Origin: Bacteroidales bacterium
Lineage (GTDB): Bacteria; Bacteroidota; Bacteroidia; Bacteroidales; TTA-H9
Assembly: GCA_030656615.1 (NCBI GenBank)
Contig: JAUSOY010000005.1
Coordinates: 62,001-126,000 of the forward strand
Length of the DNA: 64,000 nucleotides
Direction of reading: 5' to 3'
Shown: piece by piece, positions 12,890 to 64,000 of the stretch
How the letters are laid out: each line of letters starts with the position of its first letter
How positions within the stretch are numbered: the first letter of the stretch is position 1
Notes under the pieces: model-generated
Databases searched by the model: none
The model's input: only the letters and a program-made list of their open reading frames with translations
Told to the model about the DNA's origin: nothing
Position numbers and translations under genes: made by a program

Positions 12890-12899
12890 GAAGGTAAAT

Positions 12900-16627: not shown

Positions 16628-16877
16628 AGGTCAGTGTTTTGTTTAGATTAAAATCAACTTTATCAGCAAGTTCACGATAGATGCTCTCATCCCGTTTATG
16701 CCATACAATGTACAATATAATTTAAGGCGTCACTTGTAATGTTATTAACAGTCGGTTGTAAGTGTTTGAGTCAAAAAAAATTGTGTTCTGAAAAGTTTTT
16801 TCAACCTCATAATGAACACATTAAAGGTAATGCCTGATGCTTCGGGCTTATCAGAGCGTTCGCTGTCGAAAGCAGCC

Positions 16878-17687: not shown

Positions 17688-17695
17688 CAAAGGTA
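17688..17695 (-). promoter_or_regulatory. Orphan -7 box far upstream of the YhbP-like gene
   Basis: TACCTTTG is an exact TAnnTTTG match on the minus strand, but no TTG is found at the -33 distance and the next minus-strand start is 364 nt away. It could be chance, or the promoter of a long leader or small RNA. Confidence 0.3.
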
Positions 17696-17867
17696 ATTTT
17701 CTACTCGTAATCTGTCCAGTATTTTATGTGCCTTTGATTTAAAATGGATTGTTAATTTGTGGTATAACAGGCAATTACGGTCTGATAACTTCTATTATTT
17801 GGAATAGTTTTAACTGAATTGTTTTTATTCAGTTTTTCGTCTGGAGACTCACCTTGGTTATTGATTA

Positions 17868-17895
17868 TTGATTTTCGGAGGAAGGCGTATCTTTG
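17868..17895 (+). promoter_or_regulatory. Promoter of the MBL-fold hydrolase gene
   Basis: TTG at 17868-17870 and TATCTTTG at 17888-17895 are separated by 17 nt, which fits the Bacteroidota -33/-7 arrangement. The ATG follows 28 nt later. Confidence 0.65.
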
Positions 17896-17923
17896 GCCCT
17901 GAATTATTAAACGTATTTTACCC

Positions 17924-40868: not shown

Positions 40869-40890
40869 TTAATCCTTTAGCTATATACTA

Positions 40891-40923
40891 AAAAGCTGTC
40901 CCTTCGGGGGCAGCTTTTTTTTT
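40891..40923 (+). terminator. Intrinsic terminator of the 2339-residue surface protein gene
   Basis: AAAAGCTG-T-CCC pairs with GGG-G-CAGCTTTT around TTCG and is followed by a T run. Confidence 0.85.
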
Positions 40924-41052
40924 GATTTATAGGCAACTAAACAGTGTTTTGGTAGTCTAATATATTATATAAGAGTAGGTAATGGATGTGGTTTTTTTGA
41001 ATCGAATTTTCTTCTGTTAATTATTGGTTTATTAACGTAATCAGAGATAGAA

Positions 41053-42942: not shown

Positions 42943-43085
42943 TCCTATTGTAATTGAGTGTGTTTTTTGCAATTTATTTTATCGAAAAAAAATCATTTTT
43001 GCCATAGATATATGATAATCAACTTTATAATCTCGAAACGCTCGGATTAATAATTGAATTTTTGAAACCTTAAAATGGAAGTTAG

Positions 43086-44861: not shown

Positions 44862-44918
44862 GTAGGTGATAATTCTACAATAAATTTTCAGTATTTAAAA
44901 CGCTGGAATTTAGCAAAC

Positions 44919-44950
44919 AAAGGGTCTGCCAAGCATTGGCGGCTCTTTTT
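44919..44950 (+). terminator. Probable terminator of short paralogue 2
   Basis: GTCTGCCA pairs with TGGCGGC (one wobble) around AGCAT and is followed by TCTTTTTATT. Confidence 0.55.
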
Positions 44951-44988
44951 ATTAGTAAAAGGTGTTTTCTTTATTAATAATGAACTCC

Positions 44989-44996
44989 TATCTTTG
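44989..44996 (+). promoter_or_regulatory. -7 box of the ~1838-residue surface protein gene
   Basis: TATCTTTG is an exact TAnnTTTG match 46 nt before the ATG at 45043. Confidence 0.6.
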
Positions 44997-45042
44997 CCCG
45001 GTATTATAATTTTATATTTAACTAACCTAATTGTCTAACCCC

Positions 45043-48000
45043 ATGAGGAAAATTACAAATTTCTTCGTAGTTATGCTTATGCTTTTAGGAGCATTTGGCA
45101 TTAACTCCGCTCAGGCTGTGCAGGTTACCATTGGTAACGGTACACTCTCCAGTAATTATCCCTTCACAACTTTTTGGCATGACGGTCGTACACAGATGCT
45201 GTTTACGGCTACCGAGCTCACTGCTGCTGGTGCAATTCCCGGAAACATCCAGGATTTCGCCCTCAACGTGATTACGGCCAACACCCAGTTGATGAACGGA
45301 TTTACCATTTCTATGCAATCAACTGCGATTACTTCTGTAACTGCATTTGTTGAAACCGGATTTACTACCGTTTATTCCGGTAATTACACTGTTCCAGGAA
45401 CAGGTTGGCAGACTTTTACTCTTTCAAGCCCATTTACTTGGAATGGAACGAGTAATCTGTTGGTTCAGATTTGTTACGATAACTCAACTTACAGTGGCTA
45501 TTCAACAGTAAATGCAACTGCAGCTGCTGGTATGACCTGGGGTCGTTATACAGATGGCGCAGTTGGTTGTTCATTAACCGCTGGATCTGCACAGGCTAAC
45601 AGACCTAACGTTCGCATGAATTTCCAGGCATCTGGAAATGCACAGGTTAACGGAATCGTTACCAATGCCCTTAACAATCAGCCCATCACCGGTGCTAAAG
45701 TTAAGATTGGTGATTCCATTACCTACACCACAGCAAATGGTGCTTATATGCTACGTGTAAACGTTGGCACACATACCATCGAATGCTCAAAACTTGGTTT
45801 CGTAACGATGACATCACCGCTCGCAGCTACTGCTGGTGGAATGCATACCGCTAACTTTGCCATGTTGGAAAACACACCAACTCCTGGTGTTGTTTTTGCT
45901 GCTCTTAACACTGCTGCCAATGCTGTAAATATCAACTGGGGTCTTCCTTTCAGTGGATACGAAATCATTTATGATGATGGTGTTTATGAAAATTTATCAA
46001 CCTGGGCTACTGCTGGAAACATCAATGCTCTGAAATTCACTCCAATCAATCAGTATCCTGTAAAGGTTACCGGTGGTTCAGTGAATATTGGCAATGGTTC
46101 TTATCCTGCTGGTTTAACCAGTCCTAAAAAATTCGAAATTGCAGTGTATGATGATGATGGTAACCTCGGATACCCAGGTACTGAGCTTGCTAAATTCGAA
46201 GTAACTCCTACAAATTTTGGTTGGGTTGAATTTACGCTACCTACAGCTATCACTCTTACAAGTGGTAATTTTTACATCGGTATGATTCAGATGGGCAACC
46301 ATCCTAATTGTTCCCCTATTGCTATCGACGAAACCAATCCAAGCATGAGGTCATATTCGAGATTTGTTACCGGTAATGCCCCATGGGTACCTGCTGGTTA
46401 TAACGATTTCATGATTCGTGCAAAAGTTAATGGTTCAGGTGGTCCTTTGGATCTCGCTACTTCAGCAGCTACTCCGATATACGTTGAACGTACACGTATC
46501 AACCGTACAACTAATTTCATGAAACAGCCTAAGGTTGTTGGTGGACATGAAGGCGATGCTATTTATATGCCCCTCAACGATGGTGATGCTCCTGAATCAC
46601 TCCTCGGTTATCAGGTATATCGTTTGAAACAGGGTGAAGAATTGACCCCTGCTGTTTGGACTTCGATTGGAACACCTGCTACTACCTCTATCGTTGACAA
46701 TAGCTGGCCTACACTTCCTAACGGTCCTTACCTCTGGGCTGTAAAAGCCAAATATACCAACGATCGTTGGTCAGAAGCTGTTTTCTCCAATGTAGTTGGA
46801 AAAGGTTGGACATCAAACGTAACCTTCAACATTACTTTATCCTCTGTAGGTGCTGTTCCTTCAGGAGTTAGCATTACAATGGATCATGTAACCTATGATA
46901 CCCTTTATGCAGGTGTTACTCCTGTTTCGGGAACTTTAAACTTCCCAACTGTATGGAAAGGCACCTATAATATTACTGTTCAGAAATTCGGTTACCAGGC
47001 CTATACCGCCACTGTTGCCGTCATGAACGATTCATATACATTCAATATTCTTTTGAATGAAACCAAATGGGCTCCTTATAATCTTTTTGTTGATGATCGT
47101 ACGCTGGTAGCTACCTGGAATGCACCAAGTCCTCAGCTCGCTTTGCTCGAAGAACGTTGGACTACTGGTAACTTCACTGCTAACCAGTGGATTAAAAATG
47201 GGAGTAACTGGGGAATTTCTACCGCTATTGGTAATGCTGCTCCTTCCGCTATTTTCAACTGGTCACCTCAGGTTACCAATTATAACCAAACTCTCACTTC
47301 GAAAGAAATGACCGGAGCTGGTTCACCCGTATTGTCATTAAAATATGACATTATGCTTGATAATTATGGAACAACCAATGAAAACCAGATGGCTGTTGAA
47401 ATTTGGGACGGTGCCGCATGGAATCGCCTGAAGAATTACAGCAATATGAGTGGAAGTTTTGATTGGACTCCAGAAAGCATCAACCTCAATGCATATACCT
47501 GGGATACTTTCAAAATCCGTTTCGTAGCTTACGGAGCTGATACCTATGATATCAATAACTGGAACATTGACAACATCCTTGTTTTAGCTACTTTAACTGA
47601 CAAAAACATGCTTGGCTATAATGTTTATCTGAATGATATTCAGATTGCTTATACCAATCAGACAACTTATACCTTACCCGCTAGTCTTTGCGTTTATGGT
47701 CAGACTTACACTGCTTCTGTAGATGCTATCTACGAAAGTGGTGTTTCATTACGCGATTACTATACTTTCACTGCTCATTTCCTTCCTGCTCCCCGCAATT
47801 TGCAGGGTGTAGCCGTTCAGGATGCAGCATATCTTACATGGGAAATCCCTGTAATGCCTTTGGATCTTAAAGTTATGAGTATGGTAGCCAATACCAATAC
47901 GCCTAATGCACATACTGATTATAGCCCCGTTGCTACTACGTATGATTATTCAAATGTAACCGATGCAATCTGGGATGTACTGTTTACCTTCAATGGTAAT

Positions 48001-50580: not shown

Positions 50581-50614
50581 GAAGGGGAGGTGCTTGGTCA
50601 CCTCCCCTTTTTTT
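50581..50614 (+). terminator. Intrinsic terminator of the 1838-residue surface protein gene
   Basis: AAGGGGAGGTG pairs perfectly with CACCTCCCCTT around CTTGGT, followed by TTTTTTT. Confidence 0.9.
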
Positions 50615-50615
50615 G

Positions 50616-50623
50616 TATCATTG
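50616..50623 (+). promoter_or_regulatory. Possible -7 box of sulfotransferase 1
   Basis: TATCATTG has one mismatch to TAnnTTTG. It begins directly after the preceding terminator's T run and lies 16 nt before the ATG at 50640. Confidence 0.35.
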
Positions 50624-50639
50624 CATAGCCAATTACAAA

Positions 50640-51686
50640 ATGAACTTCACTGAAATTCCTTTCTTTTTTATCATTGGTCGTCCTCGTTCGGGCACTACAC
50701 TCCTTCGTACCCTTTTTGATGCACATCCAAATTGCATTGTTCCTCCTGAATATCCAGTAATTACTGATATTTTTCATCGTTTCGGGCCAGATAAAACGTG
50801 GAATCGGGATGATGTTCAGGGTTTTTACAACTCCTTTATTCAGCCGCAATTATTTGATTTCTGGAAATTTGAATACCTTCAGATTAATGAAGAAAACTTA
50901 AGAACGAATCTTACTCAAATCGCTCAGGGGACTTCATCCGTTGATGTTTTAAAACTATTCTATCTGCACGCCGGTTCAGATTTCGAAAAGGAAGACATCC
51001 GCTTGCTTGGTGATAAAAATCCAGTGTATGCATTGTATACCAAGCAATTAATGCGTTGGTTTCCGGAGGCGAAGTTTATTTTTATTACACGCGATTACCG
51101 CGACAACTTCGTGTCTATGCGTAAGTTCGAATTTGAGGCTCCGAATATGGCCATTCAGGCGTATCGCTGGAAGTATATTAGCCGGATGTTTCATCGCTTG
51201 CAGAAGAAGTATCCCGGTCGTATAATCCATGTACGGCACGAAGATATTGCTACCCATCCAGAAGAATCGCTTCGGAATCTGTGTAGCTTTTTAAGTTTGC
51301 CATACAATGATTCAGTACTGCAGTTTCATAAAAAATCAGATGCAATGGCCAATAAAACAGGTCGCGATGTTTTTATGAAATATCATGAAAGCCTCACACG
51401 ACCGGTAAATTCGGATAATGTAGGTTTATGGAAATCTGTGTTGAATGAAAAAGAAATTCGTCAGGCCGATTTCATTGTTGGGAAATGGGGTAAAATGTAT
51501 GGCTATGAAGCTTCCGGAATAAAGATTAAAATTTCAGATATTCCATCAAGCATGCTTTTTCAATGCTATGGATATATATTGTATCAAATGATGCTTTTGG
51601 GAGAGCGTTTACCGTATCGGCTAAAGGTTAAACTTGCAGGATTTCTTCCATCGCTTGCTAAATTTTACCGTCGTTTTTTTCAATAA
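50640..51686 (+). CDS. Sulfotransferase family protein, copy 1
   Basis: 348 residues from ATG 50640; the longer TTG-started frame begins inside the previous terminator. PAPS-binding elements: the 5'-phosphosulfate loop FFFIIGRPRSGTTLLRTL near residue 8 and the 3'-phosphate block FITRDYRDNFVSMRKF near 145. A C-terminal hydrophobic/basic part (YGYILYQMMLLGERLPYR, LPSLAKFYRRFF) is shared with the copy at 54113. The family moves sulfate from PAPS to hydroxyl or amino groups of sugars, lipids or proteins. No PAPS-synthesis genes are in the window. The acceptor is unknown; glycan or lipid is suggested by the region that follows. Confidence 0.88.
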   Translation: MNFTEIPFFFIIGRPRSGTTLLRTLFDAHPNCIVPPEYPVITDIFHRFGPDKTWNRDDVQGFYNSFIQPQLFDFWKFEYLQINEENLRTNLTQIAQGTSSVDVLKLFYLHAGSDFEKEDIRLLGDKNPVYALYTKQLMRWFPEAKFIFITRDYRDNFVSMRKFEFEAPNMAIQAYRWKYISRMFHRLQKKYPGRIIHVRHEDIATHPEESLRNLCSFLSLPYNDSVLQFHKKSDAMANKTGRDVFMKYHESLTRPVNSDNVGLWKSVLNEKEIRQADFIVGKWGKMYGYEASGIKIKISDIPSSMLFQCYGYILYQMMLLGERLPYRLKVKLAGFLPSLAKFYRRFFQ

Positions 51687-51743: not shown

Positions 51744-53993
51744 TTATAGGATGGAGTTTGAAAAGTCTCTCTGAGCCTTGAGTAAATTTAATGAATATAG
51801 CAGGAGGTTTTTGGTTTCGCTTAACAGATTTAAAACCATCAGCGAATTTTTTGTTCCAATTGATTCTTGCTTTATCAATTTCAATTGACGTTTTTTCATT
51901 TTCTCAATCTTTTCAATCAGCAATTGCTGGTCGATGATGATTTCCTGAATTCTATTCCATTCGGAGGTTTCAAGAGTCATCGTGAGGTTGTTGAAGAAAT
52001 CTGAAACTTTATTGGTTATTTTTAATAAATCCTCGGACTGTTCTTCAATTAAGGGGGGATGATTATTATCGAGGTGCTCGTAAATGGGATGCGATATATA
52101 CGTCAGACAATGCGTTATTTCGCGCAGATAATCCAGGGTTTGAACATAAAAATGACCCGACTCAATTGAATCTTCCTCAAGTTTCTTGATTGTGCCATAA
52201 ACATTGTATTTTAATTCCTTTGTATGCGAATTAAGATCATCTATTTTTTGGCAGGTATCGCGTAAGCTTTTTCGATTTTCTTTCATGAGTTGTTTATTGG
52301 CCTTGGCATATAATTCAGATACTTCCGTTAAAACTTTGTGTATGCTTTTAGTACATTGGCTGTAAACGGTATTGTTATCGAGCTGAGCCACGTTAATCAG
52401 GCTTTCTCTGTTTTTTGTTTCTTCTTCTTTCTTCTTATGAATGAAGTGGGTTTTTATAACCATAAACAAAGCAAAACCGAGGGATGCAAACATTGCGAAC
52501 ATTCCGCCCCAATGAATAAAAATGGCAATAAGGAAGGCACCTGTAAAAGCGATGAAGGCTGTAAAGAACCAGCCGCCTATAACGGTAATGACTCCTGAAA
52601 TGCGATAAACGGCACTTTCTCTTCCCCATGCACGGTCGGCAAAGGAGGTTCCCATGGCTACCATAAAGGTTACGTAGGTTGTAGAAAGAGGTAACTTTAA
52701 TGAGGTGGCTGAAGCAATCAATATACTGGCAACAAACATATTAACGGAAGCCCTGATAAGGTCAAAAGAGGGTGGGTCTTTTTCTTTTTGGGCTTTTTTA
52801 TAAAAAGTACTATTGTCAAAACGTTTATCCATAAACCGAATGGCAGAACCCGGCAGTATGAAGTTAAAAATGCGTCCGCCTTTAATGGCATTACGTACAA
52901 GTGTTCGAGCAAAGTAGGATGAATTAAATCGTTCCATTCCTGAATCCTGACGAGCCAAATCTAATTCAGTCTTCGTTACTGTACGTGATTTTTTTGAAAA
53001 GAATAGCGTAAGTACCATGATTATACCCGCGGCAACCAGAAATGGTGTTGGCGTTTGTATGGGTTCTAAGAGTCTGCCCATGGTGTATGTTGCCGGATTG
53101 GCTAGTGGGTCAGCAATGAGTAGGTTATATGATTCGTATCCTGCCAGAGGTACTCCGATGAAATTAACAAGGTCGTTTCCTGCAAATGCCATTGCAAGCG
53201 AAAAGGTTCCGAACAGGACGATAATTCGTAAAATATTAATTCGGAATAGTACAATTAGTAATTGAAAGAGGATGGTAAGCCCTGAAAAACAAAGGAGTAA
53301 AATAGTACTGGTATTTTCCTTTATATATGTATTAATGTCGCCTGACATAAAACTCGTTCCTTTAGCACCTTTCATCAGGATGAAATAAATAATGGCCGTA
53401 ACGACCAGGCCACCCCATAGAGCACCAAAATATTTTAAGGTTTTGTTATAATTAAAAGAGAATATCAGACGTGAAAACCATTGTACGATGGTTCCAGTGG
53501 TTAGTGCAACCACGACGGATACCAGAATGGCTGAAATAATGGCCAGTGCTTTTCCGGAGTTGATGTATTGCCCCATTTCGGCAAGGTTTCCGCTACTGTT
53601 CATTACTTTTATCAGCGAAATAGCTACTGCAGCGCCGAGGAGCTCAAATACAATGGAAACAGTGGTGGATGTTGGCAGGCCATATGTGTTGAATGTGTCC
53701 AGCAATATCACATCGGTAATCATAACCGCGATGAAAATGACCATAATTTCAGTGAAAAGAAAACGGTCAGGATGAAAAACTCCGGACCTCGCAATTTCCA
53801 TCATGCCACTCGAAAACAGCGAACCGGCCAAAACACCTAGTGATGCAACAGCAAGAATCCATTTAAATGGAGCAACCTTTGAGCCTATTGCACTGTTAAG
53901 AAAGTTAACGGCATCGTTGCCAACCCCTACGATTAAGTCTGAGATAGCAAGAATAAACAAAACGACAACAAACACTAAGTAGATATTATCCAT
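51744..53993 (-). CDS. Inorganic phosphate transporter (PiT family) with long C-terminal soluble domain
   Basis: 749 residues from the ATG at 53993. A longer frame to 54137 would place basic, non-conserved residues before the first helix and would overrun the -7 box TAATTTTG at 54012-54019. Two PiT repeats are visible: GVGNDAVNFLNSAIGS near residue 25 and FAGNDLVNFIGVPLAGYES near 270, each with the GxNDxxN phosphate/cation site. About twelve helices end near residue 525. The last ~215 residues are hydrophilic, helical and PhoU-like (LNSHTKELKYNVYGTIKKLEE, LREITHCLTYISHP), which suggests a regulatory tail on the transporter. It lies between two sulfotransferase genes on the other strand. Confidence 0.9.
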   Translation of the reverse strand: MDNIYLVFVVVLFILAISDLIVGVGNDAVNFLNSAIGSKVAPFKWILAVASLGVLAGSLFSSGMMEIARSGVFHPDRFLFTEIMVIFIAVMITDVILLDTFNTYGLPTSTTVSIVFELLGAAVAISLIKVMNSSGNLAEMGQYINSGKALAIISAILVSVVVALTTGTIVQWFSRLIFSFNYNKTLKYFGALWGGLVVTAIIYFILMKGAKGTSFMSGDINTYIKENTSTILLLCFSGLTILFQLLIVLFRINILRIIVLFGTFSLAMAFAGNDLVNFIGVPLAGYESYNLLIADPLANPATYTMGRLLEPIQTPTPFLVAAGIIMVLTLFFSKKSRTVTKTELDLARQDSGMERFNSSYFARTLVRNAIKGGRIFNFILPGSAIRFMDKRFDNSTFYKKAQKEKDPPSFDLIRASVNMFVASILIASATSLKLPLSTTYVTFMVAMGTSFADRAWGRESAVYRISGVITVIGGWFFTAFIAFTGAFLIAIFIHWGGMFAMFASLGFALFMVIKTHFIHKKKEEETKNRESLINVAQLDNNTVYSQCTKSIHKVLTEVSELYAKANKQLMKENRKSLRDTCQKIDDLNSHTKELKYNVYGTIKKLEEDSIESGHFYVQTLDYLREITHCLTYISHPIYEHLDNNHPPLIEEQSEDLLKITNKVSDFFNNLTMTLETSEWNRIQEIIIDQQLLIEKIEKMKKRQLKLIKQESIGTKNSLMVLNLLSETKNLLLYSLNLLKAQRDFSNSIL

Positions 53994-54011
53994 GATATAT
54001 TTTTTACGGAG

Positions 54012-54019
54012 CAAAATTA
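54012..54019 (-). promoter_or_regulatory. -7 box of the phosphate transporter gene
   Basis: TAATTTTG on the minus strand is an exact TAnnTTTG match 18 nt before ATG 53993, which fixes that start. Confidence 0.6.
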
Positions 54020-54112
54020 TTCCGTTTTCGTACCTCTTTTGCTTTTTCCATTTTAAGTTTATGTTAATTTTCCGCTTATTAAACCTACAGAGGCTTTTTG
54101 GGTCTAAAGGCC

Positions 54113-55171
54113 ATGAAAGAAATTCAGAATCTTCCATTTTTCTTTATAATTGGAAGGCCACGCTCTGGCACAACTTTACTCAGGACGCTACTGGATGCAC
54201 ATTCGTTTGTGAAAGTCCCACCCGAATATCCTGTAATTCTAAAGCTGTATAATCGTTTTGGAAAATTAAAATCTTGGTCGGCCGAAGATGTTGAAGCCTT
54301 TGATGCTGCCTTTCGTCAGAAACTTCCTTCTGAATACTGGAAACTCGAATATCTGAATATTGATGAAATCAGGCTTAAGCAATTACTGGGTAAATTACCA
54401 ACCGATGCTAAATTCACCGATTTTATAAAAGTCCATTATTCATGCTATCAATCGGTGTATCCTACCACGGAATTGAAAATTCTGGGAGATAAAAACCCTG
54501 TTTTTGCAACCTATGTAAAGCGTCTGATGAAGATTTTTCCGGAGGCTCGTTTTATCTTTTTGACCCGTGATTACCGCGATAATTTTGTTTCTGTAAGGCG
54601 CTTTTCTTTCGAAGCACCTATTGTGGCATTGCAGGCTTATCGCTGGAAATATGTTACCCGTATGATGTTGGGTTTGAAAAAACAATTTCCCAATCGCATA
54701 CTGCATATCCGTCACGAGGATGTGATTGCCAGCGCACCAGAGACATTAAGCACGGTTTGTGATTTTCTTGGAATTGAAATGGATATGGGTATGCTTGATT
54801 TTTATAAGAAAAAGGATGAAGTATATAATATGATCTCCTCAGCACACTTTGATAAATTTCATTCAGGTCTCGGGCAGCCTATTAATCCATCCCGTATGGG
54901 TTTGTGGGAAGAAAAACTTACCGACAACGAAGTCAAAACAGCCGATGCCGTGGTAGGGATTTGGGCAGAAAGAGCTGGCTATAAAAGAAAGTACACATAC
55001 TGTTCCGCTTCAATTATTTTGAAAACAATTCCCTGGCAATTGTATGGTTATTTTTTATATCAATTGATGTCGTTTGCTGAATTTTTACCCCCGGGTTTGC
55101 GTAAGCATTTTGCTCGTTTTCTTCCAATGTTGGCCAGAATATGGCATCGGTATTTTAAAAAGGATAAATAA
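54113..55171 (+). CDS. Sulfotransferase family protein, copy 2
   Basis: 352 residues from ATG 54113 (the TTG five codons earlier is rejected). It is clearly a paralogue of the copy at 50640: FFFIIGRPRSGTTLLRTLLDAH near residue 8, LGDKNPVFATYVKRLMKIFPEA, FLTRDYRDNFVSVRRF near 148, AYRWKYVTRM, RHEDVI, and a C-terminal YGYFLYQLMSFAEFLPPG / LPMLARIWHRYF. Both PAPS-binding blocks are intact. It converges with the GNAT gene by a 17-bp overlap. Confidence 0.88.
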   Translation: MKEIQNLPFFFIIGRPRSGTTLLRTLLDAHSFVKVPPEYPVILKLYNRFGKLKSWSAEDVEAFDAAFRQKLPSEYWKLEYLNIDEIRLKQLLGKLPTDAKFTDFIKVHYSCYQSVYPTTELKILGDKNPVFATYVKRLMKIFPEARFIFLTRDYRDNFVSVRRFSFEAPIVALQAYRWKYVTRMMLGLKKQFPNRILHIRHEDVIASAPETLSTVCDFLGIEMDMGMLDFYKKKDEVYNMISSAHFDKFHSGLGQPINPSRMGLWEEKLTDNEVKTADAVVGIWAERAGYKRKYTYCSASIILKTIPWQLYGYFLYQLMSFAEFLPPGLRKHFARFLPMLARIWHRYFKKDK

Positions 55172-55829
55172 GAAGATCGCCTTTTGTCTGACTTTTATGG
55201 TCCGGAAAAACTTTTTTGATTAGATTAATAGTAAAATCTGCAAGACCACTTTCGACATCGTACGAATCAAAAATAAAAAGGGCTTGCTTATTGTCGGGAT
55301 ATAATTTATCGAGTGCTTTGCGAATTTTAATTGTTTTCTGTTCGAAATCGGTAATACGGAGTTTATACAGTTGATTTTCGACATTTTCCTGATTCTCGCA
55401 TAGTTTATATCCAAGCATCTCATTAAACTGGCGGGCTATGTTATTGGTTTTGAGAATATGAGCATATACCGATGGCCAACCAAATAAATTAAAAAAAACA
55501 TCAGTTATCATCAGAGAGACAATTGCAGGAACAAAAGTTTGATAATAAGAAGTATCATGGATAAATACGCCTGATTCAAATTCTTGCTTCTCCCAATCAA
55601 CATTTTTAGCGTTTATTAACCCGATGTCTTTACCTTCGTAATGAATGATTAAGTAAAAATTTGTGAAATTATCGATCGTGAGGAACCATTTTTCCTGCAT
55701 TTCAGGCGTGATTTCTGCTCTGAATTCCATCGTTTGGCGTATATGCTCAGCGTTTCGCCAATGCCTGAGCATTTCAATATCAGAATGCCTGACTCTTTTT
55801 AAGGTAACACCATATTTCTCAATTCGCAT
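55155..55829 (-). CDS. GNAT-family N-acyltransferase (PseH/WbdR-like) with C-terminal extension
   Basis: 224 residues. Residues 1-150 are a GNAT fold of the type that acylates nucleotide-linked amino sugars: LKRVRHSDIEMLRHWRNAEHIRQTM at the start, EITPEMQEKWFLTI, DIGLINAKNVDW, then AHILKTNNIARQFNEMLGYK with the usual NxxA(R)xxxExxG(Y/F) ending. A roughly 70-residue C-terminal extension (DKLYPDNKQALFIFDSYDVE) is not part of the core. Last gene of the ACP operon, two bases after the glycosyltransferase stop. It might use the acyl-ACP made by its neighbours as donor; this is inference. Confidence 0.75.
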   Translation of the reverse strand: MRIEKYGVTLKRVRHSDIEMLRHWRNAEHIRQTMEFRAEITPEMQEKWFLTIDNFTNFYLIIHYEGKDIGLINAKNVDWEKQEFESGVFIHDTSYYQTFVPAIVSLMITDVFFNLFGWPSVYAHILKTNNIARQFNEMLGYKLCENQENVENQLYKLRITDFEQKTIKIRKALDKLYPDNKQALFIFDSYDVESGLADFTINLIKKVFPDHKSQTKGDLLIYPF

Positions 55830-55831
55830 AT

Positions 55832-56764
55832 TTATTCAATAATCCGGCGGATATTATACGGAGGTTTTCGATTTTGAACCACATACATTCTACGGAGATA
55901 TTCACCAATGATGCCCAGGCTAAAAAGGATGATGCTTGTAGAGAAGAGTATGGCTGTAATCATACTGGTATAGCCCAATGGCACATCCCAGAATATCTTT
56001 TTGATAATATAAATTACGCCAAACACGAAACTGATAAAAGAGGCAAAGAATCCACCATAAACCAGAACTTTTAGTGGAAATCCTGTATAAAACACGACCA
56101 GATTGGCAGTTAGCCCCAAGAGTTTGGATAATGTATAACCCGATTTTTGATGTTTTCTTTTGTGATGTTCTACGGAGACAAAGCCAACAGCTTCGGTATA
56201 CCACAGGATGATTTCATCGATAAAAATGAAGTGTAAACGGTGTTCGCAAATTTTCTCTGCAATTTCTCGTTTCATAATCCGGAAAGAACTTCCATCACCC
56301 GGAGTATCACGGAATTTACGGGATGTGCTTTTCAGTATCTTACTTCCTGAATTTCTTAGGCCGGAGTGTTTTTTATCGCTGGATGGGATTCCATAAATAA
56401 TATCAGCATCCGATTTTTTAAATGCTTGAATGAGTTTGGGGATTTCGGAGGGAGGCCATTGTAAATCATCATCCGTGGTAATTATTTTTTCGCCTCTGGT
56501 CATTGTAAGCCCACAGAGCGTTGCATTATGCTGCCCGAAATTTCTTGCCAGTTTTATTATACGAACCTGTCCCTGATTCGATTGCTGGAGGCCTTGCAGT
56601 ATCTCCCAGCTTTGGTCCTTGCTTCCATCATCAACAAAAATCGCTTCAAAACTTGTTGAGAGTTCTGTAAATACCTTTTTAATCTCATAAAACAATTCTT
56701 CCAAAGAGTCCTGACTGTTATATACAGGAATAACCACGGAATATTCGGGATGTTGCATATCCAT
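55832..56764 (-). CDS. Glycosyltransferase family 2 with two C-terminal membrane helices (polyprenyl-phosphate type)
   Basis: 310 residues from ATG 56764, 13 bp after the SDR stop; a GTG-started frame overlapping the SDR gene is less likely. The GT-A domain shows YSVVIPVYNSQDSLEEL, IFVDDGSKDQSWEIL, LARNFGQHNATLCGL, TTDDDLQWPP (metal DDD) and GSSFRIMKREIAEKI. Two C-terminal helices (about 232-255 and 267-292) end in GIIGEYLRRMYVVQNRKPPY. This is the DPM1/ArnC/GtrB layout, making a polyprenyl-phosphate-sugar or transferring to a membrane lipid at the inner face of the inner membrane. Confidence 0.88.
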   Translation of the reverse strand: MDMQHPEYSVVIPVYNSQDSLEELFYEIKKVFTELSTSFEAIFVDDGSKDQSWEILQGLQQSNQGQVRIIKLARNFGQHNATLCGLTMTRGEKIITTDDDLQWPPSEIPKLIQAFKKSDADIIYGIPSSDKKHSGLRNSGSKILKSTSRKFRDTPGDGSSFRIMKREIAEKICEHRLHFIFIDEIILWYTEAVGFVSVEHHKRKHQKSGYTLSKLLGLTANLVVFYTGFPLKVLVYGGFFASFISFVFGVIYIIKKIFWDVPLGYTSMITAILFSTSIILFSLGIIGEYLRRMYVVQNRKPPYNIRRIIE

Positions 56765-56777
56765 TATATTGAATAGT

Positions 56778-57512
56778 TTAACCGCCACCCAGTATCAGGC
56801 TGGTACCTGTGACCCATTTGCTGGCATTCGAAAGATAGTAAACAATGGTATTTGCTACATCTTCTGCTTCACCCAGCCCTAAAGGCTGACGGGCTTCTAT
56901 CTGGTCGATGGTATCCTGATTGGTACTTTCAAGGGTTTGATCAAGCATGCTTCCTTTAACAAAGGCAGGAGCAATGCAGTTTACGCGTATGCGCTTTGGA
57001 GCCAGTTCCAATGCCAGTACTCTGGCATAGTTTTCAAGCGCAGCCTTCACACTGATGTACATTCCACCTCCCACAAAAGGGTATTTTATTGAGATGGAGG
57101 AAATGAATAAAAGAGAACACTCACCGGCCAATAATTTCTTTTTTCGGAGTAACTGAGTCGTTAGTAATACGGGAGCATTAAAACCGATGCTGAAATTTTT
57201 TTCAATATCATCAGCAGCAATAAACCGGGCGGGTTTAATTTCTGAAATTCCTGTGCTGTATACAACTCCGTTAAGGACGGGCAATGCTTGAACTAAGTTA
57301 TCAATATCGTTACTTAGGGTAAGATCGGCAGGGATTGCCAGATGATTTTCACCCGATAAAAGTCCAAATGTTTCTTGAAGCCTTTGTTGATTTCTTCCGG
57401 TGATAATGATACGGGCACCATATTGGCTTGCAGATATGGCTGTTTGACGTCCCAGCCCTGAAGAAGCACCGGTTACCAGAATCGTTTTACCATGTAAATC
57501 AAAGGCATTCAT
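56778..57512 (-). CDS. SDR-family oxidoreductase (FabG-like)
   Basis: 244 residues. Nucleotide loop VTGASSGLGRQ near residue 14, STGISE in the NNAG position, SSISI with the catalytic Ser, and YISVK with catalytic Tyr and Lys near 155-159, then RVNCIAPAFVKGSM. Size and motifs match 3-oxoacyl-ACP reductases. It is 4 bp downstream of the ketosynthase gene, so reduction of a 3-ketoacyl-ACP is the simplest role; a sugar ketone is possible. Confidence 0.88.
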   Translation of the reverse strand: MNAFDLHGKTILVTGASSGLGRQTAISASQYGARIIITGRNQQRLQETFGLLSGENHLAIPADLTLSNDIDNLVQALPVLNGVVYSTGISEIKPARFIAADDIEKNFSIGFNAPVLLTTQLLRKKKLLAGECSLLFISSISIKYPFVGGGMYISVKAALENYARVLALELAPKRIRVNCIAPAFVKGSMLDQTLESTNQDTIDQIEARQPLGLGEAEDVANTIVYYLSNASKWVTGTSLILGGG

Positions 57513-57516
57513 AATA

Positions 57517-58572
57517 TCAGATTTCGAGAATTTCGGGAATAATTGGATAATCCATAGTAAGGCTTACCGTGCCCCATGATAAACCAATACCAAAAGCAGA
57601 AAGCATCAGCTTTACCTTTTTTTGTGCGATTTCTTCGCGTAATTCTGAAACAATCGTTAAAGGTATGCTTGCTGAACTTGTATTTCCATATTTGCCAATC
57701 GATAATGGCACCTTTGAAATATCCAGTTTGAGCATTTTTCGTAGCGTATTATTGATGAGTTTATTGGCCTGATGAAAAACTATATAATCGAAATCATCCA
57801 GTTTTTCACCAGTAAATTCGAGATGCTTTTTAATGTTTGGGACGACTTCACGCAGTGAAAAGTTAAAAACCTCTATTCCATTTAAGGCAACATGAAGCTT
57901 CGAGCGATGAATTCCAGGACTCATTTTTTTGTAGTCGAAGCTTTTTTTTGTGAGTATGTTTCTCATTCCACCATCCGGAATAATTATGGCATCAAAACCA
58001 GAACCATCGCCCTGTAAATTAAAATGGGTGATGTCTGCATTTGAATCCAATTCGATAGCCGTGGCCGTTCCGGCATCGCCAAAGAGTGGGTAGGTACTCT
58101 TGTCTCTGTAGGCCGAGTTGAGTGTGCTAATATCGCCTACAAGTAAAAGGCCTTTGTTGATGCCCATTTGTCTCATTAAACTTCCCATAATGGATAAGCC
58201 GTAGACGTAACCCGAACAACCCAAACCAATATCCAGACTAATGCACGAATTGGGAAGTCCCAGTTTATGTTGAAGTATGCCGGAAGTTTGTGGAATGAAA
58301 TAATCGCGGGTTTGAGAAACAAATACAAGCAGGCGCACCTCTTCTTTATCCCATTTGAGTTCATCAAAAAGACGAAGCGCCGCTTTTTCGCACATATCAC
58401 CCGTAGTAATGCCTTTGGATACGTGACGTTTAGTTTCAACACCAATGGTTTTAATCAGAAGATTGCGTTCTTTCTGCGATACCCATTTATAGTCATGATT
58501 GGATACCACGTTTTTGGGAACACAAGCGGCTATACCGGCTATCCGGAGCCCAGGAATTGAAAACTGAGCCAT
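57517..58572 (-). CDS. 3-oxoacyl-ACP synthase III-like ketosynthase
   Basis: 351 residues. Thiolase fold with the KAS-III triad visible: Cys in DIGLGCSGYVYGL near residue 117, His in VFHQAN near 265 and Asn in KYGNTSSASIP near 296. Compared with housekeeping FabH it has the divergent N-terminus FSIPGLRIAGIAACVPK and a distinct loop (DKSTYPLFGDAGTATAIE is conserved). KAS III starts acyl chains by condensing acyl-CoA with malonyl-ACP. It is 24 bp after the ACP gene and 4 bp before the SDR gene, so a dedicated short acyl chain is likely. Confidence 0.9.
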   Translation of the reverse strand: MAQFSIPGLRIAGIAACVPKNVVSNHDYKWVSQKERNLLIKTIGVETKRHVSKGITTGDMCEKAALRLFDELKWDKEEVRLLVFVSQTRDYFIPQTSGILQHKLGLPNSCISLDIGLGCSGYVYGLSIMGSLMRQMGINKGLLLVGDISTLNSAYRDKSTYPLFGDAGTATAIELDSNADITHFNLQGDGSGFDAIIIPDGGMRNILTKKSFDYKKMSPGIHRSKLHVALNGIEVFNFSLREVVPNIKKHLEFTGEKLDDFDYIVFHQANKLINNTLRKMLKLDISKVPLSIGKYGNTSSASIPLTIVSELREEIAQKKVKLMLSAFGIGLSWGTVSLTMDYPIIPEILEI

Positions 58573-58596
58573 ATTTTCAGGGGTTTAATTGTTCAA

Positions 58597-58839
58597 TCAG
58601 CCTTTAAAACGATTCTTTATCAGATTAAAAACGTCGTTAACAGCTTTGGATTTTACAAGGTCATCTGCATTAAGTGTAACGTCATATTCTGTTTTTACCA
58701 TGGCAATAAGTACGAGGGCATTAATGGAATTCCAATCGAACATATCCCTGAAAGTGCTTTCGGGCTTTAATTTGCCAGGTTCCAACTCATCAAACTCATC
58801 TTCAATCTTTAAGATAAAATCTTCTATTGTAAGCGACAT
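58597..58839 (-). CDS. Acyl carrier protein
   Basis: 80 residues from ATG 58839. A longer frame to 58935 adds a Cys/Tyr-rich stretch and covers the -7 box, so it is rejected. Acidic four-helix carrier: FILKIEDEFDELEPGKL, then MFDWNSINALVLIAMV, where Ser in D-x-N-S takes the place of the usual D-S-L phosphopantetheine site. It differs from housekeeping AcpP, which argues for a pathway-specific carrier. First gene of ACP-KAS III-SDR-GT2-GNAT. Confidence 0.85.
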   Translation of the reverse strand: MSLTIEDFILKIEDEFDELEPGKLKPESTFRDMFDWNSINALVLIAMVKTEYDVTLNADDLVKSKAVNDVFNLIKNRFKG

Positions 58840-59082: not shown

Positions 59083-60441
59083 TTGAAGAAAAAAACACTT
59101 ATACTCATCAACCCGGCCAATAAACATCGAAAGGGGTTTCTGTTAAGAAATGAGTCGCGGCAGGTTCCATTGGCCCTTGGTATTTTGGCAGCACTGACTC
59201 CTTCAGAATGGAAAGTGATAATTCTCGATGAAAATTTTAAAAGTTTTCGATACCGGGATGCTGATTTAGTGGGAATTACCTCCTTTACTTCTACGGTATC
59301 CAGAGCGTATGAAATTGCGGCTTTATATCGCGAAAAAGGTATCCCTGTTGTTTTGGGAGGTATTCATGTTTCGGCTTTGCCGGATGAGGCTTTGCATTAT
59401 GCCGACGCAGTGGTTATTGGCGAGGCAGAAGAAAGCTGGCCAAAGCTTTTAGAAGATTTTGAAAATTCAGCATTAAAGAAAAAATACGAATCAGGTTTTG
59501 TTGATTTGGATAGTATTCCTGTACCCCGTCATGATCTTTTTCATCCGGGATATTTCTTTGCATCCATCCAGACCAGCCGCGGTTGTCCGCATCAATGCGA
59601 TTTCTGTTCAGTACCTTCCTTTAACGGCCATAAATACCGGATGCGTAAGATCGGAAAAGTGCTCGAAGAGATTCGTCAGGTTAAAAACAAGCTGCTTTAT
59701 TTTGTGGATGATAATATTATTGGATATGGCTCACAGGCCGAAGCACATGCAGTTGAGCTATTTGAAGGAATGATACAGATGAATTTGAAAAAGGAATGGT
59801 TTGCCCAGGCCAGCCTTGATATTGCTCAAAAACCACATTTGTTGAAACTTGCAGCCAAGGCTGGTTGTCGTATGTTGTTGATTGGAATAGAGGCAGAATC
59901 TGAAGCAGCTCTTACCGATTCAAATAAAAAACTGAATCTGAAAATTGGCACAAGTCAGTATGCAAAAGCCTTTCGCGAAATTCATAAACACGGCATTGCC
60001 GTTTTAGGGGCTTTTATTTATGGCATGGATTCGGATACTCCGGAAGCGCTTCATGCACGAACAAAATATATTTTAAATTCTTCAGTGGATGTGGTTCAGG
60101 CATCCGTGATGACTCCTTTACCAGGAACACGCCTTTTCAATCGATTAAAAGAGGAGAATAGATTACTCGCAACGAATACTCCTCAGGCCTGGGAATATTT
60201 TCATTTTTCGGATGTAGTTTTCAAACCCCTCCACATGAATCCAGGCGAATTGGCCGGAGAGATGGACTGGGCTTATTCGAAATTATTAAACAAAAATACC
60301 TTACGAAAAAAATTTCTTAGAACGTTGTGGAATACAAGAAGCATACGTACCGCATTATGGGTCTGGAATTCCAATCTTAATTACCGTTCCGTAGCATTCG
60401 AAAAGGCAACTACATTTCAATACACCGACCGTCATGGCTGA
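59083..60441 (+). CDS. B12-binding-domain radical SAM protein, copy 1
   Basis: 452 residues with a TTG start; the N-terminal KKTLILINPANKHRKGFLL is conserved in the other two copies, so the start is supported. Residues 1-140 are a cobalamin-binding Rossmann domain (LALGILAAL, DADLVGITSFT, VVLGGIHVSALPDEAL, VVIGEAEESW) without the DxHxxG cobalt ligand. The radical SAM domain has the cluster motif RGCPHQCDFCSVP (CxxxCxxC) near residue 168, then YFVDDNIIG, GCRMLLIGIEA and PLPGTRLF. Relatives (BchE, HpnJ/HpnR groups) methylate or cyclise unactivated carbons. Substrate unknown. Its stop overlaps the start of copy 2 by 8 bp. Confidence 0.88.
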   Translation: MKKKTLILINPANKHRKGFLLRNESRQVPLALGILAALTPSEWKVIILDENFKSFRYRDADLVGITSFTSTVSRAYEIAALYREKGIPVVLGGIHVSALPDEALHYADAVVIGEAEESWPKLLEDFENSALKKKYESGFVDLDSIPVPRHDLFHPGYFFASIQTSRGCPHQCDFCSVPSFNGHKYRMRKIGKVLEEIRQVKNKLLYFVDDNIIGYGSQAEAHAVELFEGMIQMNLKKEWFAQASLDIAQKPHLLKLAAKAGCRMLLIGIEAESEAALTDSNKKLNLKIGTSQYAKAFREIHKHGIAVLGAFIYGMDSDTPEALHARTKYILNSSVDVVQASVMTPLPGTRLFNRLKEENRLLATNTPQAWEYFHFSDVVFKPLHMNPGELAGEMDWAYSKLLNKNTLRKKFLRTLWNTRSIRTALWVWNSNLNYRSVAFEKATTFQYTDRHG

Positions 60442-61795
60442 AAACCAGAAAACTTTATTACTTATTTATCCTGCTAATCAACTCAGAAAGGGTTTTTTGG
60501 CTAACAGAGATACGAAATATCAGCCCTTGAGTCTGGGTATTATTGCCGCATTAACTCCACCAAACTGGAAGATTAAGATTATTGACGAAAATTTTCGGTC
60601 GTTTAAATATTATCCGGCGGATCTTGTTGGGCTTACCGCTTTTAGTTCTTCAGCTACCCGTGCTTATGAAATTGCAGCAATATACCGTGAAAAGGGAATT
60701 CCTACGGTAATTGGAGGAATACATGCCTCGATGGTTCCGGACGAAGCTATGCAATTTGTTGATTCAGTGGTTGTTGGTGAGGCCGAAAGTGTTTGGGGCC
60801 AATTAATCAGTGATGTAGAAAACGGATGCCTTCAGCCAAGGTATGATGGAAAACTTCTGGAAATGAGTTGTTCACCCCGCGCGCGTCGCGATTTGTTTCA
60901 TCCGGGATATGTCTTTGGTTCCATTCAAACTACCAGAGGTTGCCCTTTTGATTGCAGTTTTTGTTCGGTGTCGAGTTTTAATGGCCGACATTATCGAATG
61001 CGTCCCATCGATGAGGTTTTGGATGAACTGCAAGCCATGCCGCAACGGAATATTTTTTTTCTGGACGATAATATCGTCGGGACTTCTAAAGCCCATCAGG
61101 AAAGAGCGATTGAACTATTTAGGAAAATAACGGAAAGAGGTATAAAAAAGGATTGGATATCACAGGCATCTCTAAATCTTTCCGATAATCCGGAAGTGTT
61201 GAAATGGGCGGCAAAAAGCGGATGCCGAATGATTTTCATCGGTGTAGAAACTGAACAGACCGACGGATTGATTGAATCGGATAAAAAAATCAATCTAAAA
61301 ATGGGCGTCGATTCCTATGAAAGTGTTTTTAAGGAAATGCACCGTCATGGTATTGCTGCCATTGCCGGATTTATGTTTGGGTGGGATACCGATACACCCG
61401 AACGTATCCAGCAACGGGTAAACTATATCAAAAAAAGTAGCGCTGACAGCATTCAGTCAACGTTTGTAACGCCTTTGCCGGGTACGCGTTTATTTACAAA
61501 ACTGGAGGACCAAAATCGTATGATTTATAATAATTACCCGGCCGATTGGGAAAAATACGATTACGGTGATATGGTTTTTAAACCTGCTTTGATGGAACAA
61601 TCTGAGTTTATGGAAGTCATGCAATCCGCTTTAGGTCAGATTTACGATCCGGGCTATCTTAAACGTAAATTTATCGGAAGCTGGTGGAATCTAAAGAGTT
61701 TTACAACGGCATACTGGTGTTATATGTCAAACTGGAACTACCGTAATATGTATATTCAGGATGGCAGGAAAGTGAAGAATATTTTTTTAGATTAA
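60434..61795 (+). CDS. B12-binding-domain radical SAM protein, copy 2
   Basis: 453 residues, ATG start inside the end of copy 1 (8-bp overlap), so translation is coupled. Same layout: LLLIYPANQLRKGFL, LSLGIIAAL, DLVGLTAFSS, VIGGIHASMVPDEAM, VVVGEAES, then RGCPFDCSFCSVS near residue 168 with three cluster cysteines, FFLDDNIVG, GCRMIFIGVET and TPLPGTRLF. The C-terminal ~60 residues (FIGSWWNLKSFTTAYWCYMSNWNYR) are aromatic-rich and shared with the other copies. It differs from copies 1 and 3 around CSPRARRD before the SAM domain. Confidence 0.88.
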   Translation: MAENQKTLLLIYPANQLRKGFLANRDTKYQPLSLGIIAALTPPNWKIKIIDENFRSFKYYPADLVGLTAFSSSATRAYEIAAIYREKGIPTVIGGIHASMVPDEAMQFVDSVVVGEAESVWGQLISDVENGCLQPRYDGKLLEMSCSPRARRDLFHPGYVFGSIQTTRGCPFDCSFCSVSSFNGRHYRMRPIDEVLDELQAMPQRNIFFLDDNIVGTSKAHQERAIELFRKITERGIKKDWISQASLNLSDNPEVLKWAAKSGCRMIFIGVETEQTDGLIESDKKINLKMGVDSYESVFKEMHRHGIAAIAGFMFGWDTDTPERIQQRVNYIKKSSADSIQSTFVTPLPGTRLFTKLEDQNRMIYNNYPADWEKYDYGDMVFKPALMEQSEFMEVMQSALGQIYDPGYLKRKFIGSWWNLKSFTTAYWCYMSNWNYRNMYIQDGRKVKNIFLD

Positions 61796-61807
61796 GATTA
61801 TAAATAA

Positions 61808-63178
61808 TTGAAAAAGAAAGTTTTACTGTTAGTTAATCCAGTAAATTCGTATCGACGAGGATTTGCCAATCATCGTACGTTTACTTTTCCACCAGTTGCT
61901 TTTGGTATAATTGCAGCAAAGACACCAAATAATTGGAAAGTAAAGGTTCTGGATGAAAATTTTCAAAATTTCAGGTATCGGGATGCTGATCTAGTTGGAA
62001 TAACATCTTTTACGGCAGCGGCTCCCAGAGCCTATGAAATTGCTTCTGTTTTCAGGGAAAGGGGAATTCCTGTTATTATGGGAGGGATTCATGCATCCAT
62101 GGTTCCGGATGAAGCTTTGTTGTACGTGGATACTGTAGTTATGGGAGAAGTGGAGGATATCTGGTTACAGATTATTTCTGATTTTGAAGCGGGAGGGATG
62201 CAAAGAATCTATAAAGGAGGATTTGCCAATCTGGATAATCAACCAATGCCTTTTCACCACATTTATCATCCTGCGTATGCTATTCACGCTGTCCAGACAT
62301 CACGCGGATGTCCTTATCGATGCGATTTTTGCTCTGTTACGGCTTTTAATGGTCATAATTATCGTACCCGACCAATAAAAGATGTTTTAGACGAATTGGA
62401 GCTTATTCCTGGAAAAAATAAAAATATCATTTTTGTTGATGACAATATCCTTGGGGCTGGAAGCGAACAAATTGACAGAACGAAAAAGTTATTGGAGGGA
62501 ATTATTGAAAGAAAGTTAAAACTTAATTGGTTTTCACAAACAACAATCGATATCGCCGAAAATGAAGATATACTTCGTTTGGCTCGTAAAAGTGGTTGTA
62601 CTATGCTATTATTGGGAATGGAAGCTGAAACAATGGAAGGTCTTGAATCAGTAAACAAAAAACTCAACCTTAAAAAGACTCCGGCGTATTACAAAAAAGC
62701 AATACGAAAAATCCATAAGCATAGAATTGGTTTAATGAGAACCTTTATTTTTGGACTTGAAACGGATTCGGTAAAAGATATTCAAAATCGATGTAATTAC
62801 ATTTTAAGATCTTCCATTGATACGATTCAGGCTACAATATTAACCCCGTTACCCGGTACGGAATTATATCGACGACTGAATGATAACAACCGATTACTTG
62901 CTACCCAATATCCTGAACAATGGAAATATTATCATTTTTCGGATGTCGTGTTTAATCATCCAAAAATGGAGAACAAAGAATTTGCTCAAATCATGAAACT
63001 TGTTTGGCAAAGGATGTATTCAAAGCCTAATTTATGGTTGCGTTTTCTTGGTAGCCTGTGGAACACGCGTTCACTTAAAGTAGCGGTAAGTGCATATTTA
63101 ACCAATAAAACGTATGCAAAGGTATTTCTAGAAAAACCCATATGGTTTGGAGAGAATTCCAAAGAAAATCAAGTATAG
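61808..63178 (+). CDS. B12-binding-domain radical SAM protein, copy 3
   Basis: 456 residues with a TTG start 12 bp after copy 2; KKKVLLLVNPVNSYRRGF matches the first copy's N-terminus, so the start is credible. Same order of motifs: VAFGIIAAK, DADLVGITSFTAAAPRAYE, VIMGGIHASMVPDEAL, VVMGEVED, then RGCPYRCDFCSVTAFNGHNYRTR near residue 170, IFVDDNILG, GCTMLLLGMEA, LTPLPGTELY. The C-terminus (FLGSLWNTRSLKVAVSAYLTN) again matches. It runs into the convergent ligase gene with a 10-bp overlap. Confidence 0.88.
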   Translation: MKKKVLLLVNPVNSYRRGFANHRTFTFPPVAFGIIAAKTPNNWKVKVLDENFQNFRYRDADLVGITSFTAAAPRAYEIASVFRERGIPVIMGGIHASMVPDEALLYVDTVVMGEVEDIWLQIISDFEAGGMQRIYKGGFANLDNQPMPFHHIYHPAYAIHAVQTSRGCPYRCDFCSVTAFNGHNYRTRPIKDVLDELELIPGKNKNIIFVDDNILGAGSEQIDRTKKLLEGIIERKLKLNWFSQTTIDIAENEDILRLARKSGCTMLLLGMEAETMEGLESVNKKLNLKKTPAYYKKAIRKIHKHRIGLMRTFIFGLETDSVKDIQNRCNYILRSSIDTIQATILTPLPGTELYRRLNDNNRLLATQYPEQWKYYHFSDVVFNHPKMENKEFAQIMKLVWQRMYSKPNLWLRFLGSLWNTRSLKVAVSAYLTNKTYAKVFLEKPIWFGENSKENQV

Positions 63179-64000
63179 AAAGAATCAAATATTTTCTGAT
63201 ACCGCACCATTAATTGACGCCGTTTTATTTTCATACTGGGTGTAAGATCACCGTTTTCGATGGTCCATTCGTCCGGAACATAAGAATATCGTTGTATAGT
63301 TTCTGCTTCTTTTACGGCCGGGCCATTTATAATGGAAATTTCTGAAGCCAGATGGGTTTTTACTTCTTTGTACTTCAGCATTACTTCCAGTGTGGATGGT
63401 TCCAGTTTGTTTTGCTTGCAATACTCCTGAAGATAATCAAGCGATGGAACGATGATGGCCGACAGGTAATTTTTATTTTCACCCGAAACCAATGCGTGTG
63501 TAACCGCAAACGATTGTTTTAGCCTTGCTTCAAGCCGTTCAGGAAAAACATAAACTCCGGAAGCAATTTTGAAAATATCTTTTTTTCGACCGGTAATTGT
63601 TAAAAATCCTTTTTCGTCAAGTTCTCCTAAATCGCCTGTGCTTAACCAACCGTCCTTATCTATTATTTCGGCAGTCCATTCGGGGTGTTTGTAATAGCCG
63701 GGCATTACATTGGGCCCTTTTACCAATACTTCGCCATCGGGGGCAATTTTTACAACAACATCAGCGATAACAGTACCAACACTGCCTGGCTTAACCGCAT
63801 CTTCCGTATTGTATGCAACTAAAGGAGCCGCTTCGGTTAGTCCGTAGCCTTCAAATACCGGGATGCGGGCAGCCCAGAAAATATTGAGCAAATGAGGCTG
63901 AAGCTTGGCACCACCGGCTATTATCTTAATCATATTTCCACCCATGGCCTCACGCCACTTAATGAAAACGAGTTTGTATGCGATATCCATTTGGAAACGA
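63169..64000 (-). CDS. AMP-binding long-chain acyl-CoA synthetase-like protein (N-terminal part outside the window)
   Basis: The C-terminal 277 codons are visible and the frame stays open past 64000. Acyl-adenylate signatures: MIKIIAGGAKLQPHLL, then VFEGYGLTEAAP (the E-G-Y-G-x-TE block), GYYKHPEWTAEII, LSTGDLGELDEKGFLTITGRKKDIFKIASG (Asp and Arg of the ATP site) and the C-terminal Lys region PSMKIKRR. Family role: activation of fatty acids with ATP and CoA. Full-length members have about 580-600 residues. It may supply acyl-CoA to the neighbouring ketosynthase or simply be a housekeeping ligase. Confidence 0.9.
   Translation of the reverse strand, partial: RFQMDIAYKLVFIKWREAMGGNMIKIIAGGAKLQPHLLNIFWAARIPVFEGYGLTEAAPLVAYNTEDAVKPGSVGTVIADVVVKIAPDGEVLVKGPNVMPGYYKHPEWTAEIIDKDGWLSTGDLGELDEKGFLTITGRKKDIFKIASGVYVFPERLEARLKQSFAVTHALVSGENKNYLSAIIVPSLDYLQEYCKQNKLEPSTLEVMLKYKEVKTHLASEISIINGPAVKEAETIQRYSYVPDEWTIENGDLTPSMKIKRRQLMVRYQKIFDSFYT

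Follow-up and report, generated by a model that had tools for sequence, protein, structure and literature searches.

Putative surface-glycan tailoring by tandem B12-type radical SAM paralogues in a Bacteroidales genome

What do three tandem genes for B12-binding radical S-adenosylmethionine (SAM) proteins do in a Bacteroidales bacterium? The genes, referred to here as A, B and C, are located at 59083-63178 of a 64,000 nucleotide stretch (positions 62,001 to 126,000 of contig JAUSOY010000005.1, assembly GCA_030656615.1), which was analysed at full length and is called the window below. The original prediction, made from the letters of the window, leaned towards a lipid or small molecule as the product. 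The conserved gene set proved to be larger, with a GNAT acyltransferase, an ArnC-like family 2 glycosyltransferase (GT2), the aminotransferase WecE, the flippase Wzx and sulfotransferases, and indicates an acylated amino sugar instead. Our preferred answer is that A, B and C are B12-type (class B) tailoring enzymes of a surface-glycan pathway that makes an acylated 4-amino sugar, a reading to which we give a probability of about 55%.

Analysis of the open reading frames (ORFs) confirmed three intact tandem paralogues of the predicted 452, 453 and 456 codons. They had been described as overlapping, which holds for A and B (8 bp); B and C are 12 bp apart.

59083-60441, plus strand: radical SAM A, B12-binding/radical SAM protein of 452 aa, TTG start, CxxxCxxC at about 59584-59607
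60434-61795, plus strand: radical SAM B, paralogue of 453 aa, CxxxCxxC at about 60941-60964, B clade of the tree
61808-63178, plus strand: radical SAM C, paralogue of 456 aa, CxxxCxxC at about 62309-62332

Global identity is 47.9% for A/B, 49.6% for A/C and 44.0% for B/C, in agreement with the earlier estimate by eye of about half of all positions, and the paralogue alignment scores were 1068-1196 versus a mean of about -110 (standard deviation 15-20) for shuffled sequences. All three proteins exceed the Pfam cut-offs for Radical_SAM (PF04055, 51-55 bits versus 29.5) and for B12-binding (PF02310, 35-50 bits versus 32.1), and the predicted B12-binding type of N-terminal domain was thus upheld. 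The retention of CxxxCxxC and the absence of DxHxxG were also borne out by an alignment of 25 homologues, in which the three cysteines (C168, C172 and C175) are among the invariant columns and the segment at the place of DxHxxG reads LDENFxxF. The common C-terminal region exists as a shared helical part, although it is less conserved than the core. An orthologue of A was present in 8 of 8 same-family genomes. Within-genus pairs gave dN/dS ratios of 0.02-0.11 for A, B and B' (a duplicate of B found in relatives), C being left out of this comparison as its closest relative is too distant; these ratios indicate purifying selection on A, B and B', which are therefore not decaying.

Divergent from the radical SAM genes is a core cassette in the order acyl carrier protein (ACP) - beta-ketoacyl-ACP synthase III (KASIII) - short-chain dehydrogenase/reductase (SDR) - GT2 - GNAT (55155-58839), with two sulfotransferase genes flanking. 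The ACP, KASIII and SDR were already part of the original prediction, and are indeed present, on the opposite strand. A comparison of neighbourhoods, which it had proposed, was made over 149 genomes of the same order, and found the cassette order kept in every genome of the same family and, beyond it, across many other families. In L069 and L074 (the latter a Bacteroidetes metagenome-assembled genome, MAG), the cassette is contiguous with genes for a DegT aminotransferase (WecE), a Wzx flippase and sulfotransferases. The DegT enzyme of L069 is a WecE/RffA (505 bits), and so is that of the host (535 bits versus 375, and 499 versus 435), whose gene, accompanied by a divergent Wzx gene, is on the same contig as the radical SAM genes but about 84 kb upstream of them and outside the window.

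Among the 149 genomes, which are mutually related and some of them incomplete, 21 carry a close homologue of the radical SAM proteins (E < 1e-120), 24 KASIII, 39 WecE and 27 sulfotransferase. WecE was found in 21/21 genomes with a close radical SAM homologue (Fisher test per genome, 3e-15), and in 11/11 when families were counted once (p 2e-8). KASIII accompanies the close homologue in 19 of the 21 genomes (2e-17), and sulfotransferase is present in 23 of the 24 genomes with KASIII (7e-22). The radical SAM family is a narrow one, since no close homologue was found in any of 394 other genomes drawn from across the phylum.

The cassette and associated genes in the window are the following.

58597-58839, minus strand: ACP, 80 aa; PF00550 above cut-off, serine in WNSINAL
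57517-58572, minus strand: KASIII, FabH-like, 351 aa; sequence with an apparent Cys-His-Asn triad
56778-57512, minus strand: SDR, FabG-like 3-oxoacyl reductase, 244 aa; YxxxK present
55832-56788, minus strand: GT2, ArnC/GtrB-like polyprenyl-phosphate glycosyltransferase; PF00535, C-terminal membrane helices, start uncertain
55155-55829, minus strand: GNAT N-acyltransferase, PseH/FdhC-like by profile and fold
54098-55171, plus strand: sulfotransferase 2 (Sulfotransfer_3), the one that accompanies KASIII in 23 of 24 genomes
50613-51686, plus strand: sulfotransferase 1 (Sulfotransfer_3), 46% identical to sulfotransferase 2 over the matched part
24896-26893, minus strand: TMTC/PMT-like membrane protein with C-terminal tetratricopeptide repeats (TPRs), 28 kb distant here
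63169-64000, minus strand: AMP-dependent acyl ligase, FadD-like; truncated at the end of the window, full length 596 aa

The start of the ACP was set at the ATG at 58839 from homologues of 74-89 aa, the mechanical ORF extending to 58935. The full-length profile of the GT2 matched ArnC (9hwj) and GtrB (sll0501, 5ekp) equally, both with E 2e-58, and its score to the ArnC equivalog model was 154 bits (cut-off 529). For the GNAT, the closest solved sequences by profile were PseH (4xpk) and FdhC (5kta); its score to the PseH model TIGR03585, 55 bits, is below the cut-off of 93, and this was still the best family for 19/19 members. The TMTC-like label comes from architecture, as the search of solved structures matched the TPRs only; homologues adjoin the cassette or WecE in several relatives, one of them matches PMT_2, and the protein is a probable terminal glycosyltransferase. 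The acyl ligase downstream of the radical SAM genes is a conserved neighbour of uncertain role.

From homology, the enzymatic steps, the radical SAM substrate, the dependence on cobalamin, the methylation and the acceptor may be proposed as follows. WecE would supply a deoxythymidine diphosphate (dTDP)-4-amino-4,6-dideoxyhexose, KASIII and SDR acting on the dedicated ACP would provide a short 3-hydroxyacyl thioester, and the PseH/FdhC-like GNAT would attach this acyl group at the amine of the sugar. The sugar would be placed on polyprenyl phosphate by the ArnC/GtrB-like GT2, flipped in its polyprenyl-linked form by Wzx, and transferred to protein or lipid by the PMT/TMTC-like membrane enzyme, and the product would be sulfated by the sulfotransferases. 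The radical SAM proteins would modify the sugar amide or the nucleotide-sugar precursor, most probably by methylating unactivated carbons via methylcobalamin and a 5'-deoxyadenosyl radical; A, B and C may each modify another position, or may have variants of the sugar as substrates.

These parts have counterparts in known systems. The viosamine island of Pseudomonas syringae (vioA, vioS, vioR, acp, vioB, vioM and vioT) makes dTDP-N-(3-hydroxybutanoyl)-viosamine (PMC3927599), and the present set shares with it a sugar aminotransferase, KASIII, 3-oxoacyl reductase, ACP, N-acyltransferase, methyl-tailoring enzyme and glycosyltransferase. As on that island, an aminotransferase for a 4-amino-4,6-dideoxy sugar (host WecE) is encoded, and KASIII, SDR, ACP and GNAT are found together; by analogy, the product here may contain an N-(3-hydroxyacyl) amino sugar. 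The two differ in that tailoring would be by B12-type radical SAM proteins here and is by a classical methyltransferase there, and in that an ArnC/GtrB-like polyprenyl-phosphate GT2 takes the place of the 1,173-aa VioT; sulfotransferases, Wzx and the TMTC-like protein are additional here, and there is no link to flagellin. FdhC transfers a 3-hydroxybutanoyl group to dTDP-Fuc3N (PMC4869667); the cassette GNAT has the same fold as FdhC and PseH, which are its best profile matches, although its C-terminal part is longer than that of PseH. The Arn pathway (ArnB, ArnA, ArnC, flippase and ArnT) is likewise similar in its 4-amino sugar, N-acylation, ArnC-type GT2, flipping and PMT-type transfer, but here WecE stands for ArnB, a GNAT with an ACP-made acyl group for formylation, and a Wzx-type protein for the flippase, while the terminal enzyme carries TPRs and B12-type radical SAM tailoring is added.

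Several observations weigh against the glycan reading. WecE is about 84 kb from the cassette here but adjacent to it in other genomes, is not always found beside it, and is present in 18 genomes without a close radical SAM homologue; it may therefore serve another glycan. The E-value cut-offs of the co-occurrence analysis were picked post hoc, after the scores were known. In G004 the radical SAM pair and the cassette are on separate contigs. Cassettes without a close radical SAM gene were found in G040, G060, G076 and G092, and that of G107 has a PhpK-type radical SAM gene in place of this family; thus the radical SAM genes are optional to the cassette. The fold of the GNAT resembles SpeG acetyltransferases too. 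C-methylation is probably the likeliest reaction, and the evidence does not separate it from other radical reactions. Finally, the best structural match of A, AprD4, is a dehydratase that is not known to bind cobalamin.

A possible but clearly less probable explanation is that the radical SAM enzymes C-methylate, successively, the short acyl group on the cassette ACP, and that the branched group so formed is what the GNAT passes on. The ACP gene adjoins the radical SAM genes, and in L055 and L056 it is located between two of them; in addition, several genomes have fatty acyl-AMP ligases in the cluster, two of the structural matches (CysS and TokK) were crystallised with pantetheinylated substrates, and the co-occurrence with KASIII in 19 of 21 genomes is what this explanation would predict. 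Against it, the close radical SAM homologue and WecE are present in G083 and G090, where KASIII of the cassette family is missing, and the three genomes with KASIII and without WecE (G040, G076 and G092) lack the close radical SAM homologue too. These patterns favour a WecE-derived sugar over an acyl chain as the substrate.

As to cobalamin, A was modelled with AlphaFold (mean pLDDT 92.5, pTM 0.90), and the model matches TsrM, CysS, TokK and OxsB in fold, including the N-terminal B12-binding Rossmann domain. Among solved structures AprD4 (6fd2) was the best match, with a template-modelling (TM) score of 0.76, followed by MgmA, TsrM, CysS, OxsB and TokK, and AprD4 was also the best match in a profile search (E 9e-19). 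Of the followers, OxsB is a cobalamin enzyme and the other four are cobalamin methylases. With the class B/class 1 cobalamin radical SAM enzymes (CysS, TokK, TsrM, OxsB, BchE, HpnJ and HpnR), the family shares a Rossmann B12-binding domain without His ligand, the CxxxCxxC core and C-terminal helices; unlike those members, it reaches the cut-off of no equivalog model, and no known substrate or product fits the cassette. In class 1 enzymes the residue under the cobalt is located in the loop after strand 3, and is Trp in TokK, Arg in TsrM and Asn in OxsB (PMC13331322). The matching loop here, read by eye from the alignment and the model strands, has a conserved hydrophobic F or L (F68 in A), which fits base-off, unligated cobalamin and is no proof of binding. 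A, B and C are predicted to bind cobalamin, and the host encodes methylmalonyl-CoA mutase (6495-11865 of the window) and therefore uses B12. No cobalamin riboswitch was found in the window, nor was an RNA of another kind found close to the divergent promoter region. A promoter and terminator scan gave no more sites than shuffled sequences.

It is unlikely that the proteins are cobalamin-free radical dehydratases or deaminases acting on the amino sugar, in the manner of AprD4 or DesII, with the N-terminal domain as a relic. The first rank of AprD4 by both fold and profile, its length, equal to that of A, its aminosugar substrate and the missing DxHxxG are all in line with such a role. The AprD4 diol dehydratase family was, however, rejected as an assignment: the scores to NF033070 were 48-62 bits versus a cut-off of 500, and AprD4 aligns with CxxxCxxxC in place of the CxxxCxxC found here. 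The B12-binding Pfam cut-off is passed by A, B and C, and DesII was not among the profile matches to solved structures.

The search of radical SAM subgroup models, another check proposed earlier, was run as well, and no characterised subgroup claims A, B or C: no NCBIfam equivalog (BchE, HpnJ, HpnR, ladderane, AprD4, PhpK and others) scored above its cut-off. Neither of the two outcomes named beforehand as refuting the original prediction came about, as the neighbourhood also proved conserved beyond the family. That the top scores belong to BchE, HpnJ, HpnR and the ladderane B12-type radical SAM protein, and that KASIII/ACP and an acyl ligase are encoded next door, would suit the modification of a membrane or polycyclic lipid (of hopanoid HpnJ/HpnR, BchE or ladderane type) with the neighbours as lipid biosynthesis genes, but this is very improbable, as the scores are 70-124 bits versus cut-offs of 360-650, conservation of partners extends to GNAT, ArnC-like GT2, WecE, Wzx and sulfotransferases, and a long saturated chain could not be built by KASIII and SDR alone.

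Returning to the glycan reading, the question remains why there are three copies. The original prediction took them to mean successive modifications of one product, which is partly supported, and weakened by orthologous cassettes with one, two, three or no copies. Three cassette radical SAM genes were found in G000, G002, G003, G006, G008 and L069, two in G001, G005, G007, G053, G131, G013 and also G137 (the pair of G004 being on another contig), and one in G057, G126, G109 and G110. In the tree, orthologues of A and of B separate cleanly. The third gene of G002, G003, G006, G008 and L069 is the B duplicate, B', whereas C of the window groups with radical SAM genes outside the cassette in G002, G004, G006 and G008 (support 100/98, and 100/99 in another tree). 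A single origin for the third copies of all tandem triplets was tested by constraining them to one clade and rejected (approximately unbiased test, p 9e-5). Since C and B' group apart and the constraint was rejected, triplets arose at least twice, via different routes. The third copy thus differs in origin between this genome and its relatives, and the equation of three copies with three steps is weak. The GC content of C is 0.366 versus 0.41.

The unlinked relatives of C adjoin a gene for a conserved 174-aa carboxymuconolactone-decarboxylase-like protein, at 10938-11462 in L060 and found likewise in L064 and L066. The record of L069 is titled Alphaproteobacteria, yet the genes found there with the cassette have their nearest relatives in the bacterial family of the window; the genome is probably mislabelled or mis-binned. 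In L153 (G107), a PhpK-like radical SAM gene at 5911-7380 (222 bits, below the cut-off) is located between two acyl-AMP ligase genes, with an MBOAT-type acyltransferase nearby, and is apparently an independent recruitment. In L052 (G109, 2435-5628), a close radical SAM homologue is outside the core cassette, divergent beside a second, unrelated B12-binding radical SAM gene, which a sulfotransferase gene adjoins, with an MBOAT gene further along. Radical SAM homologues in L053 (G082, a Bacteroidales MAG; 9302-14195) and L073 (a Lokiarchaeota MAG; 9995-18421) are near genes that by eye resemble electron transfer flavoprotein and acyl-CoA dehydrogenase genes. In MAGs of Chloroflexota, Lokiarchaeota and Anaeromyxobacter, the neighbourhoods of distant homologues lack the cassette and are thus uninformative on function.

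Directly upstream of the sulfotransferases, the window encodes several very large proteins in succession (33849-50559; 2339, 629, 591 and 1842 aa), all probably secreted, two of which are visibly similar in their C-terminal parts; they are possible glycosylation targets. Between the sulfotransferases, on the opposite strand, is a gene (51744-54137) whose product by eye resembles a PiT-type phosphate transporter and is much extended at its C-terminus; the cassettes of relatives were not seen to contain it. A search of the host TonB receptors gave nothing specific.

Most of what is known of cobalamin radical SAM enzymes concerns antibiotics, hopanoids, peptides and methanogenesis. No description of B12-type radical SAM proteins in glycan clusters was found in the open PMC literature searched, and while the parts are of known kinds, their combination with an amino-sugar cassette appears undescribed. 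Going further, and only as a speculation that we hold improbable in its full detail, Bacteroidales may make an undescribed surface glycan with a sulfated N-(3-hydroxyacyl) 4-amino-4,6-dideoxyhexose, C-methylated by the B12-type radical SAM proteins, in which the number and kind of the paralogues (one to three, the third ones recruited independently) determine how many C-methyl groups there are and where they are placed. Naturally occurring one-, two- and three-paralogue variants offer a test of how paralogue number maps to product and, as the third gene was recruited independently, this mapping is testable by comparison of species. If true, the glycan reading would extend cobalamin radical SAM chemistry to bacterial surface glycans and provide a handle on C-branched sugars.

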